The notes under the pieces: generated by a model | What the model was told of the DNA's origin: nothing | Database searches by the model: none | Seen by the model: the letters and a program-made list of their open reading frames with translations, nothing else | Position numbers and translations under genes: made by a program | Virus record (IMG/VR): IMGVR_UViG_3300040960_001334 | Location: 1 to 35,083 of that record | DNA length: 35,083 bases | DNA from: a virus | Strand: one strand, 5' to 3' | In this document: in pieces, positions 5,255-35,083 of the stretch | Position numbering within the stretch: the stretch's first letter is position 1 | Layout: every line of letters begins with the position of its first letter

Positions 5255-7243
5255 ATGCGCTACTTGAAACAATCAACGGCTGTTGATGTGATGCTCGGCC
5301 CCTTTGTAGACAGCACTGATGGTTCGACGACAGAAGAAGCACTGACGCTATCCCAGGCTGACTTGCAGCTATCAAAAAATGGCGGAGCAGCAGCGCAGAA
5401 GAATGACACGACTTCCGGCACTCACCGCTATGGTGGCAATTACATGATTGATCTGGACGCCACAGACACGAACACTCTTGGCTCCCTTCGCCTGATGTGT
5501 AAAGAAAGCGGTGCGCTCCCCATTGTGGCTGACTTCATGGTAATCCCGGCCAATGTCTACGATAGCCTGATTGGCGGCACGGATACGCTTGAAGTAGACA
5601 CCACTCTTATTGAAGGGGTGGATGCCACAAATCAGATCAACGCCGCAGCAGACACCGCAATCAGTGACGCCGCTCTGGCCACCGCAGCCGCCTTGGCCAC
5701 CGTAGACAGCAACGTAGACGCAATCCTTGTGGACACGGGAACGACCATTCCCGCACAGATTACGGGGTTGAACGACTTATCAGCGGCACAGGTCAACGCA
5801 GAGGTTGACACGGCCATCGCAGACGCGGCACTGGCAACGGCGGCGAGCCTTGCGACTGTAGACGCGAATGTTGACGCCATTCTTGTGGATACCGGCACGA
5901 CAATTCCCGCACAGATTACGGGGTTGAATAACCTGTCAGCCGCCCAGGTTAATGCGGAAGTTGATACTGCAATTGCTGATGCAGCATTGGCAACGGCAGC
6001 AAACTTGGCCACGGTTGACACGAATGTCGATGCCATTCTTGTGGACACAAGCACGACTATTCCGGCGCAGATCAGCGGGTTAAATGATATTTCGGCCGCC
6101 CAGGTTAATGCGGAAGTCGATACAGCTCTTGCCGACTATGACGGCCCGACGAAAGCCGAACTCGACGCTGGTCTGGCGGCGCTGAATGATCCAACGGCGG
6201 CGGCTATTGCAGATGCCGTATTGGATGAGGCGTTGGCAGGGCACGCTACAGCGGGGACTTTAGGCAAGGCTGTCACAGACATTGAGGCCGACACGAACGA
6301 ATTGCAAAGTGACGATGTGCCAGGATTAATCGCAGCACTGAACAACTTGTCAGCGGCACAAGTCAACGCGGAAGTCGATACTGCGATTGCCGATGCTGGC
6401 CTTGCTACATCGGTTGCACTGGCGACAGTTGATGCCATTGTGGATGCCATTCTCGTAGACACAGGAACTACCATACCGGGGTTGATTGCAGCCCTGAACG
6501 ACCTAAGTGCCGCCCAAGTTAATGCAGAGGTAGATACGGCGATTACTGATGCCGCGCTTGCTACAGCCGCAAACCTGGCGACAGTCGACGGCATTGTGGA
6601 TGCAATCTTGGTCGACACGGCTACGACCATTCCGGGATTGATTGCCGCGTTGAACGACTTATCAGCTGCCCAAGTCAACGCAGAGGTGGACACGGCGCTT
6701 GCCGACTATGATGGCCCAACCAAGGCTGAACTTGATGCAGGGCTGGCAGCGCTGAATGATTTGTCTGCAGCCGAAGTGAACGCAGAAGTTGACACCGCAC
6801 TTGCTGACTACGATGCGCCAACAAAGGCAGAATTGGACGCTGGCCTTGCGGCACTGAATGACCCGACTGCCGCAGCGATTGCCGATGCGGTGCTAGACGA
6901 GGCAACGGCAGGTCACACAACACCGGGAACTGTTGGCGCAGCCATTGTAGATATACTGGCAGACACGAACGAGCTACAGGCGGATGATGTGCCCGGCCTA
7001 ATTGCGGCGCTGAATGACGTATCAATTGGTGATATACTGCAAACGCAGTTGACTGAAAGTTATGCCGCAGACGGCACAGCACCAACGCTGACGCAAGCTG
7101 TGATGCTAATCATGCAGCACCTGACAGAGGTGGAACTTGTCGGCACCACATGGACCACGAAGAAACTGGACGGGACTACCACAGCGGCAACATTTACAAC
7201 GGATGATGCCAACGACCCAACCAGCATTACTAGGACAGGCTGA
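5255..7243 (+). CDS. Long repeat-containing fibre protein
   Basis: A 662-residue protein in three parts. Residues 1-125 are a compact N-terminal domain (MRYLKQSTAVDVMLGPFVDS; GTHRYGGNYMIDLDATDTNT), probably the attachment domain. Residues about 128-590 are Ala/Asp-rich repeats without aromatic core. The module LSAAQVNAEVDTA is present seven times, alternating with ATVDxNVDAILVDTGTTIPA units, and a longer DYDGPTKAELDAGLAALND block recurs. This pattern suits a long trimeric coiled fibre shaft. The C-terminal 75 residues (from about SIGDILQTQL) form a terminal domain with a TWTTKKLDGTT-type beta strand, common in phage structural proteins. The stop overlaps the next start (TGATG). Whether it sits on tail or capsid cannot be told from sequence. 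Confidence 0.8.
   Translation: MRYLKQSTAVDVMLGPFVDSTDGSTTEEALTLSQADLQLSKNGGAAAQKNDTTSGTHRYGGNYMIDLDATDTNTLGSLRLMCKESGALPIVADFMVIPANVYDSLIGGTDTLEVDTTLIEGVDATNQINAAADTAISDAALATAAALATVDSNVDAILVDTGTTIPAQITGLNDLSAAQVNAEVDTAIADAALATAASLATVDANVDAILVDTGTTIPAQITGLNNLSAAQVNAEVDTAIADAALATAANLATVDTNVDAILVDTSTTIPAQISGLNDISAAQVNAEVDTALADYDGPTKAELDAGLAALNDPTAAAIADAVLDEALAGHATAGTLGKAVTDIEADTNELQSDDVPGLIAALNNLSAAQVNAEVDTAIADAGLATSVALATVDAIVDAILVDTGTTIPGLIAALNDLSAAQVNAEVDTAITDAALATAANLATVDGIVDAILVDTATTIPGLIAALNDLSAAQVNAEVDTALADYDGPTKAELDAGLAALNDLSAAEVNAEVDTALADYDAPTKAELDAGLAALNDPTAAAIADAVLDEATAGHTTPGTVGAAIVDILADTNELQADDVPGLIAALNDVSIGDILQTQLTESYAADGTAPTLTQAVMLIMQHLTEVELVGTTWTTKKLDGTTTAATFTTDDANDPTSITRTG
5640..7020 (+). 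repeat. Protein-level tandem repeats encoded with scrambled codons
   Basis: The module SAAQVNAEVDTA appears near 5783, 5936, 6092, 6350, 6512, 6664 and, as SAAEVNAEVDTA, near 6766. The amino acids are almost unchanged while third positions vary: valine in the VNAEVD core is GTC, GTT, GTA or GTG, and the first serine is TCA, TCG, AGT or TCT. There are no long identical DNA blocks. Confidence 0.85.
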
Positions 7244-8227: not shown

Positions 8228-8842
8228 ATGGACAAGAAAAAATACAAGATAACCTGGCGCAATACGGATGATCTTATTCCGTATGCTCGCAATGCCCGCG
8301 TTCACAGTGATGAACAGGTGGCGCAGATAGCCGCAAGCATATCCGAGTTCGGCTGGACTAACCCGATATTGCTAGATGGCGACAACGGCGTGATTGCCGG
8401 ACATGGCCGTTTGATGGCAGCGCGGAAGCTGGAACACAAAGAGGTTCCGACCATCGACCTGCACGGTTTAAGCGAAGCGCAGAAGCGGGCCTATATCATT
8501 GCGGATAACAAGACTGCCCTGAATGCCTCATGGGACTTTGATATGTTGACGGTTGAGTTTGAGGAACTGGCAGGCATGGATTTTGACCTGGCGCTGACCG
8601 GCTTTGGCGAAGTGGAAATTGACGCCATTGCCAATGATGGCCTTGACCTAAGTGTGCTGGATGACGTTTCAGATGATGAACTGGAAGGCTACGAGGCCAA
8701 CGTGCGGAAAGCCATACAAGTTGAATTTGAGCAGGAACACTTTGCCGAAGCGCAGGAGTTGTTTAAGTTTTGGCGTGAGCGTGAAGCATATGTTGGCGGC
8801 TTAATAATGGATTTCTTGCGAGCAGAAAAAAACAAGCTGTGA
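8228..8842 (+). CDS. ParB/sulfiredoxin-fold nuclease-domain protein
   Basis: A 204-residue protein. Residues 1-100 are a ParB N-terminal domain: IPYARNARVHSDEQVAQI, SISEFGWTNPILLD, the GHGRL signature near residue 59, then a Leu-rich segment and AYIIADNKTAL. In phages and plasmids this domain is often the N-terminal half of DNA methyltransferases; here no methylase motif follows. The C-terminal part is acidic, then ends in a KFWREREAYVGGLIMDFLRAEK-like helical segment also seen on free-standing phage ParB proteins. I chose ATG 8228 over an in-frame TTG at 8171 because AGGTGG precedes it and the family begins here. It overlaps the glycosyltransferase gene by four bases (GTGA). Likely guides or nicks DNA within the modification pathway. 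Confidence 0.82.
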   Translation: MDKKKYKITWRNTDDLIPYARNARVHSDEQVAQIAASISEFGWTNPILLDGDNGVIAGHGRLMAARKLEHKEVPTIDLHGLSEAQKRAYIIADNKTALNASWDFDMLTVEFEELAGMDFDLALTGFGEVEIDAIANDGLDLSVLDDVSDDELEGYEANVRKAIQVEFEQEHFAEAQELFKFWREREAYVGGLIMDFLRAEKNKL

Positions 8843-9570
8843 TTATCTGCATACCTACCAAGGGCCGACCCGAAACCAGCACCTACAAACTGTTTGAGGC
8901 AAGCGGGCATGAGGTTCATCACTTCATTGAGCCGCAAGACTTCGACGATTATGCCGTTCCAAACAAGGTCAACATCCAGGCCAACGATCAAGGGCTGGTC
9001 TACGCCCGTAACTTCATCATGGATTGGGCGCGGGGCAACGGCCACCAGTTCATATGCATGTGTGATGATGATATGACAGAGTTTGGTGTTGCTGTGAATA
9101 ACCGCTGTGTCAGTCAACCTGGTGCTGACGCACTAAGTGCGCCTATTGCAGCGTTTGAAAAGGCCGGGGCAGCGATAGGCGGGTTCAATGCGAGGCAATA
9201 CGCTTGGAGTGAAAAAAAAAGCTATCGCTTGAACGCTGGTAAGAGCGAAGGGGTAGTGTTGATGAACATGAGGAAAATATATTGGCGATATCGCGGAGGC
9301 ATGAAGCAAGACAGAGACTTCCTGATGCAGTGCCTAGATAATCGGCAGAACTTTATTTTTTTTCCAAAGGTATATTATGGAACCCCTGTTATTGGCACAA
9401 ATAAAGGGGGGCTGCATGAGCAATACGCAACAGGGGTTGACGCGAAAGCAGCGTATACTCTGCAAAAGCGATGGCCTGAATATTCCAAGATCATTGAACA
9501 GCACGGGCGCATTGACGTCCGGTTGGACTACAAGCGCAAGGCCGCAGATATGGGATTGAAGGTAATATGA
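8839..9570 (+). CDS. TET-associated glycosyltransferase (TAGT-like, GT-A fold)
   Basis: A 243-residue protein. It starts with IICIPTKGRP, a GT-A nucleotide-sugar-binding strand and loop. It has QGLVYARNFI near 51-60, the metal-binding acidic triad CDDDM (D76-D78), GGMKQDRDFLMQCLD near 153-167 (the usual acceptor/catalytic Asp segment) and a TNKGGLHEQY segment near 187-196. This order fits the small glycosyltransferases that accompany TET/JBP dioxygenases in phages and are thought to add a sugar to the hydroxymethyl group of an oxidised DNA base. It starts with GTG inside the stop of the ParB gene and ends in an ATGA overlap with the dioxygenase, so the cassette is translationally coupled. The sugar donor cannot be read from sequence. 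Confidence 0.82.
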   Translation: MIICIPTKGRPETSTYKLFEASGHEVHHFIEPQDFDDYAVPNKVNIQANDQGLVYARNFIMDWARGNGHQFICMCDDDMTEFGVAVNNRCVSQPGADALSAPIAAFEKAGAAIGGFNARQYAWSEKKSYRLNAGKSEGVVLMNMRKIYWRYRGGMKQDRDFLMQCLDNRQNFIFFPKVYYGTPVIGTNKGGLHEQYATGVDAKAAYTLQKRWPEYSKIIEQHGRIDVRLDYKRKAADMGLKVI

Positions 9571-10379
9571 ACACGCTGGAACTGGTCAGGCTGGATGGGC
9601 CAGCGGTTAAGGTCGGGCAGAAATGCCCCGCCATAGAACCCAACATTACCGAAGACACCATATTCACCGAGAGCGGGAAGCCTGTGGGGTTTTACCTGCG
9701 GGACATAACGCAGCACTCAACTATTGCCGGTGAACTGGCAGCTATCGCCAACAGGGAATTGTGCAGCGACAGGGTGCCAAAAACAGAAATGAGCCGTGGC
9801 CCCCAGGGCAGCAAGTTGGACAAACTAAAACGGCTACAAGAAGGAAAGAACCTTGTGACGCAATACAGCGCCATCCTTGGTTCAGTTCCACCAAAACCTC
9901 ATATGCGCCGACCCTACCCAACTATAAGCAGCGTTCATTCCTGCAAGACAGCTAAGATATTTGTGAAATCAATGCTTTACCTTTGCCGGGAAAGCGAGGC
10001 GCTTATAAAAAAGTTGATGCCTGAACAATACGAGGTGCAGAAAGCCGCCATAGCCGCCAACGTGCCGGTCAAATACAGGTTCGGTGAGTTGTTCACTAGT
10101 TCAATCAGCAATTACAACATCGCAGCCGATTATCACATAGACCGCGCCAACTTGCGGGATTGCGTCAATGTGATCATAGCCAAGCGGGAAGCGGCAACAG
10201 GCGGGAACACAAATGTTCCGTCCTTTGGTGCTACGGTCGATAGTTGCGATAATTCAATGCTCGTGTATCCAGCATGGAAAGACATACACGGCGTAACACC
10301 GATAGTGAAGCAGTTGCCTTATGGCTACAGGAACACGCTCGTATTCTACCCCCTAGCAGCGTTCGCAAAGTACGTTTGA
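9567..10379 (+). CDS. TET/JBP-family 2-oxoglutarate/Fe(II) DNA base dioxygenase
   Basis: A 270-residue protein. The double-stranded beta-helix core shows the iron ligands as YHIDRAN (H190, D192) and DIHGVTPI (H241), and the 2-oxoglutarate-binding Arg in YRNTLVFYPL (R255). The upstream LxxxANxELxSDRVPKxxM segment (about 58-75) is typical of phage TET/JBP proteins. The family oxidises the 5-methyl group of cytosine (TET) or thymine (JBP) in DNA to hydroxymethyl and beyond. A GAAGG ribosome site lies before the ATG, which overlaps the glycosyltransferase stop. Its own stop overlaps the start of the QueE-like gene (TGATG). No C5-methyltransferase is encoded in this phage, so whether the substrate is host-made 5-methylcytosine or thymine is open. 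All four key residues are present, so it should be active. Confidence 0.85.
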   Translation: MNTLELVRLDGPAVKVGQKCPAIEPNITEDTIFTESGKPVGFYLRDITQHSTIAGELAAIANRELCSDRVPKTEMSRGPQGSKLDKLKRLQEGKNLVTQYSAILGSVPPKPHMRRPYPTISSVHSCKTAKIFVKSMLYLCRESEALIKKLMPEQYEVQKAAIAANVPVKYRFGELFTSSISNYNIAADYHIDRANLRDCVNVIIAKREAATGGNTNVPSFGATVDSCDNSMLVYPAWKDIHGVTPIVKQLPYGYRNTLVFYPLAAFAKYV

Positions 10380-11047
10380 TGCTGCCAGTAAATGAGATAT
10401 TTCAAGCGGTGCAAACAATTGGAGCCTTCACCGGCACACCGTCTATCTTCATTCGTTTGCAGGGTTGCCCTGTAGGTTGCCCGTGGTGCAACACTAAACA
10501 TGCCTGGGCCATCAACGACGACACGCGCACAAATTTCGTTGATATGGTTGCCAAAGAAGAACTTGGTCAGCCAGAATGGGCATGGGTTGAGGCGAAGTGG
10601 CTGGTGGAATACATAGTCGGTTTGTTTGAAGGAAACCATGTCGTGATAACGGGCGGCGAGCCATGCCAATACGACCTGACGCCATTGACGAATATGCTTG
10701 AGGGATACGGCTACACAACCCAGGTTGAGACAAGCGGGGTGCTGCCGGTGCAGGTGTCAGCATTTACATTTGTGACCGTTTCACCCAAGATAGACCAGCC
10801 GGGCGGGTTGCAGGTTATTGAGCAGAACGTGATCGACGCTGACGAAATAACCTTTGCCATCAGCAGCGAGCGCGATATAGCCGCGCTTCAAAGCTTGTTA
10901 AATGCGTTAAAACGACCCGTGGGCATGGTATACCTGCACCCAATAAGGAGCACATACCAGAACGCCCGATTGTGTGTGCAGGCGGCAACAGAGGCAGGGT
11001 GGCGCGTATCGTTGCCTGCGATGTTCAACGGAGTTAGCGATGGGTGA
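10379..11047 (+). CDS. queE: QueE-like radical SAM enzyme (7-carboxy-7-deazaguanine synthase family), active-site divergent
   Basis: A 222-residue protein, the length of enterobacterial QueE. The N-terminus NEIFQAVQ..FTGTPSIFIRLQGC is strongly QueE-like. The radical SAM cluster Cys are C30, C34 and C37 (CPVGCPWC), followed by the family's NTKHAW. The SAM motif TGGEP is at 91-95. True QueE makes 7-carboxy-7-deazaguanine from carboxy-tetrahydropterin in queuosine and 7-deazaguanine DNA pathways. Two usually conserved elements are changed: QGEG is QTIG (12-15), losing the Glu, and the C-terminal QTHK is replaced by PAMF (213-216). No QueC, QueD, FolE or DpdA gene is visible. The gene symbol marks family, not proven activity. 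The ATG at 10379 overlaps the dioxygenase stop; an upstream in-frame start at 10274 would only add residues antisense to family alignment. Confidence 0.85.
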   Translation: MLPVNEIFQAVQTIGAFTGTPSIFIRLQGCPVGCPWCNTKHAWAINDDTRTNFVDMVAKEELGQPEWAWVEAKWLVEYIVGLFEGNHVVITGGEPCQYDLTPLTNMLEGYGYTTQVETSGVLPVQVSAFTFVTVSPKIDQPGGLQVIEQNVIDADEITFAISSERDIAALQSLLNALKRPVGMVYLHPIRSTYQNARLCVQAATEAGWRVSLPAMFNGVSDG

Positions 11048-11492
11048 CAACCCGCACAAGGACCATTTTGCGCCTGAAAAGGTGGCCCAAGTGCTGATTG
11101 ACTGTGGCGGCATCAAGGCTGTGGCAGCGAAGGCGTTGGGTTGTTCGCGTCAGACAATCTATAATTACATTGAGAAATACGATATGTGCAGGGATGCCGT
11201 GGAAGAAGGCATTGAGATCGTTCTGGATAAAGCCGAATACAATTTGGTTCAAGGCATCGCTGACGGGCACGAAGGTTTTACCAAATATTACTTGAACAAC
11301 AAAGGAGCGCGGCGTGGCTACGGTTTTAGACCGGAGGCAAATGGAGCAATCGGCGGACCCGATCAGGCTGCGGAAAGTGCAGCGTCCGGCGCAAGACTTG
11401 TCGCTGATAGAATTACTCGCTTGTCAGCCGCAATCGACGCTAGACCATTACCTGAAAGTGTGGATGGAGACGAACCAGAGCGAGTTGAGTGA
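11040..11492 (+). CDS. Terminase small subunit
   Basis: A 150-residue protein with an N-terminal helix-turn-helix of terminase small-subunit type: 'EKVAQVLIDCGGIKAVAAKA' then LGCSRQTIYNYIEKY. A 'KAEYNLVQGIADG' helix and KYYLNNKGARRGYG follow, the usual oligomerisation part. It binds the packaging site on phage DNA and recruits the large subunit. ATG 11040 overlaps the end of the QueE-like gene by eight bases. The last 179 bases overlap the chosen start of the large subunit in another frame. Confidence 0.82.
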   Translation: MGDNPHKDHFAPEKVAQVLIDCGGIKAVAAKALGCSRQTIYNYIEKYDMCRDAVEEGIEIVLDKAEYNLVQGIADGHEGFTKYYLNNKGARRGYGFRPEANGAIGGPDQAAESAASGARLVADRITRLSAAIDARPLPESVDGDEPERVE

Positions 11493-12726
11493 CCTTCAAT
11501 ATGATTGGGAATTCAACGGCAGGCCGTCACAATTTGCACCAAAGGGGAACTGGACCATATGGGCATTGGTCGCAGGCCGAGGGTTCGGCAAGAACCGCAG
11601 CGGCGTAGAATGGGTGCGAAGCCTTGTAGAAGGGCCAACCCCACTAACAGCACCAGAAGGTGCGCCAAAGTGGATTAACATTGTCTCCAGCACCAGTTCT
11701 GACAATCGCGACTTCGTGGTCGAAGGCGAAAGCGGGTTTCTCAACCTTTGCCCCCCCGACTATATGCCAACCTATGAGCCATCCAAACGGCGTTTGACTT
11801 GGCCTAATGGGTGCCGTGCTACGTTGTTCAGCGCAGAAGAACCCGAAAGCCTGCGCGGGGCACAAGGCGAGGTGTCGTGGTGTGACGAACTGGCAAAGTG
11901 GAAATATCCAGACAGGGCATGGTCCAACCTGCGGTTCGGTATGCGCCTTGGTGAGAACCCCCGCACCCTGATAACAACAACACCGCGCCCGGTGAAACTG
12001 CTCATTGACCTAATGAAGCGTGAACGCACCCACGTTACCAGCGGCACGACCTACGACAACGCCAGCAACCTCGCCAAGTCATTCTTTGAAGATGTTATCA
12101 CCGACTATGAAGGCACCCGACTAGGTCGCCAGGAGCTAATGGGCGAACTGCTTTTAGACCGCCCCGGCGCACTGTGGAACCTCGAACAACTGGATATGCT
12201 GCGGGTTGACCAAGCACCCGAAGACCTTGTGAGAGTGGCCGTGGCTGTTGACCCAGCCGTTACTGCTAATGACGGTTCAGACGAAACAGGCATTGTTGTT
12301 GGCGGCAAAGCCGCAGACGGTCACGGTTACTTGTTGGGGGACTATACGATCAAGGGTTCACCGAACGAATGGGCCACCAAAGCAGTGCAGGCGTACTACG
12401 AGCATGAAGCCGATTGCATCGTGGCAGAAGTCAACCAAGGCGGCGACATGGTTGCAAGCACTATCCATGCGGTAGACAAATCTGTTAAAGTCGTGTCAGT
12501 TCGCGCAACGAGGGGCAAAGTTGTTAGAGCGGAGCCGGTAGCTGCGCTATACGAACAGAACAAGGTGCATCATGTTGGCACCTTCTCGAAGTTGGAAGAT
12601 CAGATGGTGAATTTCACACAAGACTTTGACGCCAAGAAAGAAGGGTATTCCCCCGACAGGCTTGACGCTGCTGTGTGGCTGTGGGTTCACCTAATGGTCA
12701 AAACGAAAAGGAAGCCCCAGGTATGA
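11314..12726 (+). CDS. Terminase large subunit (ATPase and nuclease)
   Basis: A 470-residue protein driving genome packaging. The ATPase part shows a Walker A-like AGRGFGKNRSG, in which the usual Thr/Ser after GK is Asn, a Walker B ending in SWCDE with catalytic Glu, and the coupling motif ITTTPRP. The nuclease part shows VAVDPAV, IVAEVNQGG and SPDRLDAAVW, carrying the acidic metal-binding residues. The pattern resembles the gene-transfer-agent and alphaproteobacterial siphophage type. GTG 11314 has AAAGGAG six bases upstream but gives a long overlap with the small subunit; ATG 11341 (GGAGG three bases away) and ATG 11464 are alternatives. The stop overlaps the portal start (ATGA). Confidence 0.92.
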   Translation: MATVLDRRQMEQSADPIRLRKVQRPAQDLSLIELLACQPQSTLDHYLKVWMETNQSELSDLQYDWEFNGRPSQFAPKGNWTIWALVAGRGFGKNRSGVEWVRSLVEGPTPLTAPEGAPKWINIVSSTSSDNRDFVVEGESGFLNLCPPDYMPTYEPSKRRLTWPNGCRATLFSAEEPESLRGAQGEVSWCDELAKWKYPDRAWSNLRFGMRLGENPRTLITTTPRPVKLLIDLMKRERTHVTSGTTYDNASNLAKSFFEDVITDYEGTRLGRQELMGELLLDRPGALWNLEQLDMLRVDQAPEDLVRVAVAVDPAVTANDGSDETGIVVGGKAADGHGYLLGDYTIKGSPNEWATKAVQAYYEHEADCIVAEVNQGGDMVASTIHAVDKSVKVVSVRATRGKVVRAEPVAALYEQNKVHHVGTFSKLEDQMVNFTQDFDAKKEGYSPDRLDAAVWLWVHLMVKTKRKPQV

Positions 12727-34231: not shown

Positions 34232-34413
34232 TTAGACGTTCCTTTCGGTTTGAACGGGGTCAGGTATTCATTGACGACATACCCTTCCCCCTGGCGGCGC
34301 ACCCTGATGATGCGCCGATGGTTTGGCTTGGCCCGCAGTTCTCGCCGTATTTTTTCAGCTTCAAATTCATTATCTGCTGTGTGACTGGCGACAAGTGCTC
34401 GCTGTTTATACAC
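34228..34413 (-). CDS. Hypothetical basic protein, 61 residues
   Basis: Complete copy of the gene cut at 1-133. GTG start after GGGGAC. KIRRELRAKPNHRRIIRVRR is strongly basic, so nucleic acid binding is possible. Overlaps the next gene by four bases. The end repeat begins inside it at 34281. Confidence 0.6.
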   Translation of the reverse strand: MYKQRALVASHTADNEFEAEKIRRELRAKPNHRRIIRVRRQGEGYVVNEYLTPFKPKGTSK

Positions 34414-34415
34414 AA

Positions 34416-34682
34416 CTAGTCCCCAAGCAGATATTGCCGCACAGACGCAGTATTGATGCCTAGCAGGTGCGCTATAGGCAAGGGGTCGAACCCCTCGCCA
34501 GTAAGGTAGTCTGTGACGCGGCGTTGCTTTTCATTAAGCCGCTTTTCTTTTTTGCGCCTAAACTTCATGCACACTTTACACACAGGCTGTTTGCGGTCTT
34601 TGGTGCGCGGGTGTGAGTAGTATTCCGAAAGCAGTTTCGTCTCACTGCACTTGCTGCATTTCTTTGTATCAAGCATCAACAA
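34416..34682 (-). CDS. Small zinc-ribbon protein, second strain copy
   Basis: 88 residues, identical to the copy at 136-402 after residue 12; the N-terminus reads MLMLDTKKCSKC instead of MSMPDTKECTKC. The Cys pairs are kept. The DNA differs more in silent positions than in protein, so selection has kept the sequence in both strains. Confidence 0.75.
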   Translation of the reverse strand: MLMLDTKKCSKCSETKLLSEYYSHPRTKDRKQPVCKVCMKFRRKKEKRLNEKQRRVTDYLTGEGFDPLPIAHLLGINTASVRQYLLGD

Positions 34683-35083
34683 TCTCCGCCTGCTGGATGC
34701 GTTCTTCCATAACCTTTTTCAGTTCGAGGCTGTCTGTTTTGTTGTACGCCCACAATTGGCGCAGCCCTTCGGCATTGTGGTTGCGAAACCAGTCGACTTC
34801 GGCAGGTTCTGCTGTGCTGACATATTCCAGAACCCTGTCGACTGCTTCGCCAATTGGCACAGAAACCAGATCACCCATTTGTTCAAACTGGAACAGGGTT
34901 GCAGGACCACCCAGCCGCGCTTGACGCTTCTGGCGTTCGGCTGCTTCGGCTGCTTCCCACGCATTAGAACTTTCTACATGGTCAAATTCTTCGGCAACAT
35001 GCACACCGGCCAGGTCTTCGGGCCAGCCTTTCCGCAGGGCTTGACTTTCGGCACATTTCGCCAGCATGTGCTTGGGCATCTTG
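34669..35083 (-). CDS. bet: Bet recombinase, second strain copy, N-terminal part beyond the window
   Basis: The C-terminal 137 codons of the Bet gene, from the KMPKHMLAKC region to the stop. Differences from the copy at 389-1330 are few and mild (Gly to Ser, Ala to Gly, VH to AY, AI to VM) and lie in the variable tail. The start of the gene lies outside the window. Confidence 0.85.
   Translation of the reverse strand, partial: KMPKHMLAKCAESQALRKGWPEDLAGVHVAEEFDHVESSNAWEAAEAAERQKRQARLGGPATLFQFEQMGDLVSVPIGEAVDRVLEYVSTAEPAEVDWFRNHNAEGLRQLWAYNKTDSLELKKVMEERIQQAEIVDA

Follow-up and report, generated by a model that had tools for sequence, protein, structure and literature searches.

Base J of kinetoplastids is made by JBP1/2 and JGT: thymine is hydroxylated and a sugar is then added. 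In phages, cytosine hypermodification by TET enzymes reportedly starts from a phage C5-methyltransferase, as described by Burke et al. in 2021. As far as the summary in PMC12730594 goes, the characterized phage TETs act on 5-methylcytosine (5mC), together with a C5-methyltransferase and glycosyltransferases. Thymidine hypermodification (phages M6, ViI, phiW-14, Tonitrus and Wooper) uses a thymine-derived 5-hydroxymethyl group as its attachment point. M6 has a thymidylate-synthase homologue; this phage and others of its type are believed to produce 5hmdU at the level of the nucleotide pool, from which it is incorporated (PMC6449724). The actinophage isolates Wooper and Tonitrus carry the gene order ParB–TET–amino acid:DNA transferase (ADDT)–kinase (PMC11955845). 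A further and common phage cassette, ParB–DpdA–QueC–FolE–QueD–QueE, belongs to the 7-deazaguanine pathway.

We analyzed the virus record IMGVR_UViG_3300040960_001334 over its whole length of 35,083 nucleotides (the window). Its first and last 803 bp aligned over their full length with 91.7% identity, so that the two contig ends join up, strain differences aside. The phage genome is essentially complete. In a collection of 84,980 species genomes of bacteria and archaea, a host search by the prophage route confirmed no TET relatives, and a TerL search returned only ~50% identical alpha- and betaproteobacterial relatives. The locus holds four genes that overlap by a few bases each, as the original prediction described, and their open reading frames and families were recovered as follows, directly ahead of the terminase genes:

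8228..8842, + strand: ParB-like protein, 204 aa (phrog_620, 3e-54; Noc/ParB/KorB fold by model and Foldseek)
8839..9570, + strand: TAGT (TET-associated) glycosyltransferase, 243 aa, GTG start (PF20691, 4.3e-16; triad D76–D78)
9567..10379, + strand: TET/JBP 2-oxoglutarate/Fe(II) dioxygenase, 270 aa, proposed thymine hydroxylase (PF12851, 2e-8; residues; AlphaFold2 and Foldseek)
10379..11047, + strand: QueE-derived radical SAM protein, 222 aa (phrog_2076, 9e-30; E. coli QueE 6NHL, 4e-51)
11040..11492, + strand: small-terminase-like protein, helix-turn-helix (weak phrog_309/4044; HTH Pfam matches)
11314..12726, + strand: large terminase subunit, marker of the packaging module 3' of the cassette (PF03237, 1.5e-25; PF17289, 4e-16)
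8606..8630, no strand: left breakpoint of the swapped module, within parB past the conserved core (similarity to siblings lost)
10373..10379, no strand: right breakpoint of the same module, where the QueE gene begins (similarity to siblings returns)

The dioxygenase matched the Tet_JBP profile PF12851 with an E value of 2e-8 and 34.0 bits, slightly below the cut-off of 34.9. Residues H190, D192, H241 and R255, already singled out in the original prediction, were invariant in 82 of 82 relatives and in four actinophage homologues. The HxD...H iron triad and the 2-oxoglutarate-binding Arg were both present. The AlphaFold model (pLDDT 90.4) gave CcTET (2.9e-10), TET2 and NgTET1 as its best PDB matches in Foldseek, and the predicted structure is a TET/JBP double-stranded β-helix fold. 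RefSeq and PHROG label this protein 'queuine tRNA-ribosyltransferase'. The TET/JBP residues and fold ruled out this label, and a tRNA-ribosyltransferase tie between the dioxygenase and the QueE-like gene is likewise false. The TAGT scored 59.9 bits against PF20691 (cut-off 27.5). Its acidic triad was placed correctly at positions 76–78 and reads D76–D77–D78; D76, D77 and D158 were invariant in 13 TAGTs.

The ParB-like protein consists of a CTP-ParB/Noc/KorB-type core (residues ~1–135), a disordered linker (138–154) and a helical tail (155–204). G58 and R61 of its GxxR motif were invariant. Foldseek matched the model to Noc, ParB-CDP and KorB; the modeled fold is a ParB/Noc/KorB N-domain of the CTP-dependent clamp type, for which CTP use is predicted. 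The helical tail was seen only in TET-linked ParBs and was missing from the 54 DpdA-, Mom- or methylase-linked ParBs examined. In our census sample of 81 related TET loci, ParB was present in 77, and the dioxygenase almost always followed it.

Profile searches of the studied record found no C5-methyltransferase (PF00145), in agreement with the original prediction, and no thymidylate-synthase-type hydroxymethylase (PF00303). Zero profile matches were obtained for an ADDT or a kinase, so the genome has none of these hallmarks of the M6/ViI type. As there is no thymidylate-synthase-type hydroxymethylase in the genome, hydroxylation, if any, must happen on DNA. Nor was a methyltransferase a constant neighbor among the relatives: of 43 related records taken whole, 3 had a C5-methyltransferase, as did 3 of the 81 loci, and the gene lay kilobases from the cassette and never adjoined it.

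The tailoring partners across the 81 TET loci were FkbM (27), TAGT (23) and ADDT (9, usually with a kinase), and ~15 loci had no adjoining tailoring gene. Along the TET tree, at least 26 tailoring-gene changes were counted, with TAGT, FkbM and ADDT partners intermixed. The ADDT is PF18724, the same family as the M6 thymidine-hypermodification enzyme. A sibling with a 96% identical TET (L003) carries a kinase where the studied genome has TAGT, and this kinase and the '5-hmU DNA kinase' of Gordonia phage Wooper are members of one family (3.5e-36). Another relative (L080) has both an ADDT and a Wooper-family kinase. BLASTP gave no direct match between the L003 kinase and M6 gp54; what ties it to thymidine hypermodification is the Wooper kinase family, together with the ADDT. 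Because thymidine-hypermodification enzymes replace TAGT beside closely related dioxygenases, thymine is the likely target, and glycosylation of 5-hydroxymethyluracil (5hmU) by TAGT would follow from this.

The original prediction left a choice between thymine and host-made 5mC. The thymine half is well supported by context, namely methyltransferase-free cassettes and swaps to ADDT or 5-hmU-kinase genes. The other half is a rival, in which the host, or else a companion phage, would supply the 5mC that the dioxygenase oxidizes, and TAGT would glycosylate the 5hmC; we consider it unlikely. It would agree with the 5mC substrate of the characterized phage TETs summarized in the source cited above, and three relatives do have a C5-methyltransferase somewhere. 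TAGT is also found in cytosine pathways, acting on glucosylated cytosine in the T6-type second glucosylation (PMC13390438), so the sugar step alone gives no pointer to thymine. However, neither the studied genome nor any of the 81 cassettes contains a C5-methyltransferase, the same TET clade pairs with ADDT and 5-hmU-kinase-family genes, and sparse host 5mC would give few modified sites.

The cassette resembles the Burke-type cytosine system in having a phage TET dioxygenase and a glycosyltransferase, and differs from it in the missing methyltransferase. If thymine is the target, it also resembles the base J pathway, with thymine hydroxylation by a TET/JBP-fold enzyme followed by sugar transfer. 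It differs from that pathway in having no J-binding domain, a TAGT instead of JGT, a ParB partner and a phage genome. As an analogy for how the cassette would work, the earlier comparison with base J synthesis is fair; the product itself is a prediction. With thymidine hypermodification, the shared features are the proposed attachment at a thymine-derived 5-hydroxymethyl group, the neighbors of related TETs (PF18724 and the 5-hmU-DNA-kinase family) and, for Tonitrus and Wooper, ParB and TET (PMC11955845). Compared with M6-type phages, the studied genome has no thymidylate-synthase homologue and carries a glycosyltransferase in place of kinase and ADDT.

The QueE-like gene had a different distribution. 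It was found in 2 of the 81 fetched TET loci plus the studied genome, and 22 of 24 TAGT-TET loci (studied genome included) had no such gene. It keeps its place beside the terminase, and the adjoining module varies (TAGT-TET, kinase-TET, Mom or N6-methylase). Four siblings (L082–L085) carry Mom or N6-methylase in the identical locus, with the same QueE and no TET-TAGT. These ParB-Mom and ParB-N6-methylase modules are alternative occupants of the locus, with adenine modification enzymes and a different ParB tail. Nucleotide similarity to L085 stops at 8606 and returns at 10373; that to L082–L084 stops at 8630 and returns at 10377. An additional pathway step carried out by the radical SAM enzyme was thus not supported, and a dedicated TET-TAGT step was rejected on this distribution.

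The position of the gene is the slot of the last gene in the 7-deazaguanine cassette. The full order with the terminase behind QueE was seen in ~60 loci, including one (L145) with a TerL of the studied-genome type. The slot, the ParB on the left and the QueE on the right beside the terminase are the same in both; in contrast, profiles built from relatives found no DpdA, QueC, FolE or QueD in the studied genome, and the substrate residues of its QueE are gone. The QueE-like gene is most likely a backbone gene, the end of a displaced 7-deazaguanine cassette. No genome was found that combines this phage's own backbone with an intact deazaguanine cassette, so that we infer, rather than observe, a relic instead of a single acquisition of QueE.

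The QueE-like protein aligned with E. coli QueE (6NHL, 4e-51) at ~43% identity across the aligned part. It keeps CX3CX2C (C30, C34, C37), GGEP at 92–95, S135, R26 and T39. The changes are G13T, E14I, D38N, K158T, Q187H, S190R, A195N, Q213P and loss of the terminal H, and the altered sites lie on the substrate side, in the CPH4 pocket (QGEG, CDT, K158, Q187, Q213/H). The QueE-like protein has 8–9 substrate-side changes, against 0–2 in equally diverged pathway QueEs; 72 pathway QueEs averaged 0.24 changes and were near-invariant at the positions altered here. Two other lone phage QueE-like proteins were altered at the same positions. The dN/dS of 0.03–0.05 indicated strong purifying selection. 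The gene probably survived with a rebuilt substrate pocket and a putative new radical SAM role. We tentatively propose that this protein and the two other lone proteins may form a new radical SAM class, with the radical chemistry re-used on a new substrate after the 7-deazaguanine pathway was lost or swapped out. It is possible, and again tentative, that this role is useful whatever DNA modification is carried, acting for example on a host metabolite, the nucleotide pool or a counter-defence target.

Other roles appear less probable. A real extra tailoring step of any cassette here, such as a radical rearrangement of the modified base, with a role like that of the Pseudomonas phage M6 radical SAM isomerase, is quite improbable. 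The gene lies in the same operon with an overlapping start and encodes an intact, strongly selected radical SAM core, and radical SAM enzymes reportedly tailor thymidine adducts in M6, in work by Lee et al. from 2022. Yet the TET-less siblings keep the gene and most TAGT-TET loci manage without it. Kinship with the radical SAM protein of the M6 modification cluster was rejected, as that unrelated 480-aa protein gave no alignment. It is rather unlikely that the protein lost pterin catalysis and moonlights as a host-takeover factor, for example by blocking host division, an effect that E. coli QueE has when abundant. The E. coli enzyme associates with the Z-ring and induces filamentation that does not depend on its part in queuosine synthesis; its R27A mutant makes no queuosine but still induces filaments (PMC11142719). 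The phage protein keeps the cluster cysteines and a region aligning with the E45–W67 segment, but several consensus residues of this segment (T61, D/E63) are not conserved, the activity is missing from distant QueEs, and R27 is retained while other pocket residues are gone. Continued synthesis of CDG, boosting the host queuosine pathway, is very unlikely. The close similarity to E. coli QueE and the kept cluster, GGEP, R26 and T39 would fit it, and overexpressed E. coli QueE with E15A as its sole change remained able to make queuosine (PMC11142719), so the loss of pocket residues is no proof of lost CDG synthase activity. However, the residues lost here scarcely vary in equally diverged pathway QueEs, and the phage has no other pathway gene.

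We therefore favor, as the probable explanation of the whole locus, a ParB–TAGT–TET thymine-modifying cassette beside a QueE-like relic with a new role outside the pathway. The three genes directly upstream of the terminase genes would act on DNA after replication. ParB, with its CTP-clamp-type fold and TET-specific tail, may load the dioxygenase onto newly replicated phage DNA; TET would hydroxylate the thymine methyl group to give 5hmU; and TAGT would add a sugar, producing a base-J-like glycosyl-5hmU that protects the DNA ahead of packaging. The interior of a deazaguanine cassette, from the parB core to where queE begins, would have been replaced by recombination, with QueE left as the last gene. 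The QueE-like protein would then have lost its pterin-binding residues and, in our proposal, owed its survival to a new radical SAM role.

What surprises most at this locus is the apparently repurposed QueE. The old question of whether phage TET/JBP enzymes can hydroxylate thymine in DNA, feeding base-J-like or amino-acid-tailored products, becomes testable. A ready-made panel for it is a single dioxygenase clade in which tailoring genes for sugar, methyl, amino-acid and kinase steps are exchanged freely. The probably repurposed QueE cautions against reading such a gene, by annotation only, as queuosine or deazaguanine pathway. In a single slot, bounded by a common ParB core and the packaging genes, phages swap entire DNA-modification chemistries, and the ParB tail tracks the modifying enzyme.

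The original prediction placed four genes of a DNA hypermodification cassette in the window. All four were found, overlapping by 1–4 bases, and two terminase genes followed them:

8228–8842, ParB-like protein
8691–8842, helical tail of the ParB-like protein (residues 155–204), shared with 76 relatives
8839–9570, TET-associated glycosyltransferase (TAGT)
9567–10379, TET/JBP dioxygenase (TET)
10379–11047, QueE-like protein
11040–11492, helix-turn-helix small-terminase-like protein
11314–12726, large terminase (TerL)

The window is a siphophage genome that encodes an O-like replication initiator and RecT as well as portal, capsid and tail proteins. Its ends (1–803 and 34281–35083) matched over 803 bases at 91.7% identity, an imperfect overlap lying partly in the recT-like gene. 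The 35,083-base record is therefore a closed circular genome of about 34.3 kb that mixes two slightly different strains. A 662-aa protein (5255–7243) is built of degenerate repeats of the ALADYDGPTKAELDAGLAALND type. Its alignment to siblings broke into many shifted pieces, indicating that repeat number differs among strains.

PF12851 matched the dioxygenase at 2e-8, slightly under the curated cut-off. The predicted H190, D192, H241 and R255 were invariant in all of the 82 relatives aligned, and four actinophage homologues have them too. A profile from 31 relatives matched TET2 in the PDB (E 0.011); this match aligned the arginine and the second histidine of the iron site. The AlphaFold2 model (mean pLDDT 90.4) had CcTET, TET2 and NgTET1 as its top structural matches. 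The protein belongs to the TET/JBP enzymes. RefSeq and PHROGs wrongly call it "queuine tRNA-ribosyltransferase", as residues and fold are those of TET/JBP. Labels also mislead in phrog_6059, phrog_800 and the RefSeq entries for MED4-184 and for cluster B mycobacteriophages, where TET dioxygenases carried the same queuine label and 5-hmU-kinase-like proteins were called "terminase small subunit" or "adenylate kinase".

A viral contig scan gave 80 TET loci, and Prochlorococcus phage MED4-184 made 81. ParB stood beside TET in 77 of them, and the gene between the two varied. The commonest partner was an FkbM-type methyltransferase (27 loci: L001, L025, L033, L062 and 23 more), suggesting an O-methylated or otherwise methyl-tailored hydroxymethyl base; the MED4-184 partner was also of this type. 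TAGT occupied the position in 23 loci, a kinase alone in three and other glycosyltransferases in four. Two glycosyltransferase-like proteins at this position (L052:9045-10004 and L072:4158-5063) were assigned by eye; the latter had no Pfam or PHROG match. Nine loci carried an amino acid:DNA transferase, accompanied by a kinase in all but one. These transferases matched PF18724, to which gp51 of Pseudomonas phage M6 belongs, and homologues are present in many Salmonella and Klebsiella phages. About 15 loci had no tailoring gene. ParB was followed directly by TET in L015–L019, L021–L024, L041, L042, L076, L077 and L079; these may make 5hmU without further tailoring, or the tailoring gene may lie elsewhere. 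On the TET tree the tailoring states were intermixed, with at least 26 changes.

Host-made 5-methylcytosine and thymine had both been proposed as substrates. The predicted lack of a C5-methyltransferase was upheld, as a PF00145 search across the window gave no match. Such a gene was also not a constant neighbour in relatives: among 43 whole records three had one, as did three of the 81 loci, kilobases away from the cassette. In L003, whose TET is 96% identical to that of the window, a P-loop kinase sits exactly at the TAGT position, and similarity to the window was missing precisely across the TAGT gene (8842–9567). This kinase belongs to the family of the Gordonia phage Wooper "5-hmU DNA kinase" (3.5e-36). 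Locus L080 carries both an amino acid:DNA transferase and a Wooper-family kinase. Wooper and Rhodococcus phage Tonitrus have the gene set ParB-TET-transferase-kinase, and that of Tonitrus has been reported as a putative system for hypermodifying thymidine (PMC11955845). Because enzymes acting on 5-hmU-derived bases swap with TAGT around one dioxygenase clade, gene context makes thymine the most likely substrate, better supported than cytosine. A search for PF00303 (thymidylate-synthase-type enzymes) across the window was negative. Since the window has no recognisable route to 5-hmdUTP, the reaction would have to take place on DNA. A late step, after replication, would agree with the position of the cassette just upstream of the packaging genes.

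The ParB model showed a ParB/Noc/KorB-type CTP-binding core, a disordered linker and the helical tail. A profile was built from the last 60 residues of 76 TET-linked ParBs, which match it by construction. Among 54 ParBs whose linked gene is DpdA, Mom or a methylase fusion, it had no match, indicating that the tail goes with the modifying enzyme. ParB would load or track on DNA and its tail would dock the modifying enzyme, possibly as a partner-specific docking domain.

The QueE-like protein matched E. coli QueE (6NHL) at 4e-51, with about 43% identity over the aligned part. No TET locus outside the lineage of the window (L002, L003) had the gene. Siblings L082–L084 and L085 share TerL (98% identical) and the same QueE (96%) but have no TET; ParB-Mom (L082–L084) or a ParB-N6-methylase fusion (L085) replaces the cassette. 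This argues against the proposal that the radical SAM enzyme adds a further step. Nucleotide similarity to these siblings was 93–98% up to 8606–8630, inside parB, was then lost, and returned at 10373–10377, the queE start. Thus, the swapped module lies between the parB core and queE and does not include QueE. The order ParB-DpdA-(QueC)-FolE-QueD-QueE, often with a terminase next, occurs in about 60 other phage loci, and in L145 this deazaguanine cassette precedes a TerL of the window's family. The window lineage retains both end genes, ParB and QueE, with other genes between them. The most economical history is that a 7-deazaguanine cassette was replaced and QueE was left over; alternatively, QueE may have come by a single acquisition.

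The dN/dS of the QueE-like gene between the window and siblings was 0.03–0.05, similar to that of the terminase, indicating a protein in use. Among 72 pathway-type QueEs, 42 alignment columns are conserved at a level of 95% or more. In these columns each of the 72 had 0–2 changes (mean 0.24), including those at least as far from E. coli QueE as the window protein. The window type retains the cluster cysteines and the GGEP, ETSG and SPK motifs; it has G13T, E14I/V, D38N, K158T, Q187H, S190R, A195N and Q213P, and the terminal histidine is missing. E. coli QueE binds its substrate through Q13, E15 (position 14 in the window protein) and R27, and magnesium through T40 (PMC11142719). Its Q189 is among the predicted SAM-side residues (PMC11142719), so some changed positions may not face the pterin. 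E15A alone did not abolish queuosine synthesis under overexpression (PMC11142719). Two other QueE-like phage proteins (L155:1271-2107 and L156:8902-9645) are changed at the same substrate-side positions, with no FolE, QueD or QueC gene nearby. They clustered with the window type through long branches, so the changes may be independent or of common origin.

The ParB-TAGT-TET cassette of three genes belongs to a known kind, in an arrangement that is new. Earlier computational work by Iyer et al. in 2013 reportedly predicted such cassettes in outline. The radical SAM gene appears to be a retained, rebuilt QueE and not a pathway step, and is the more surprising part.
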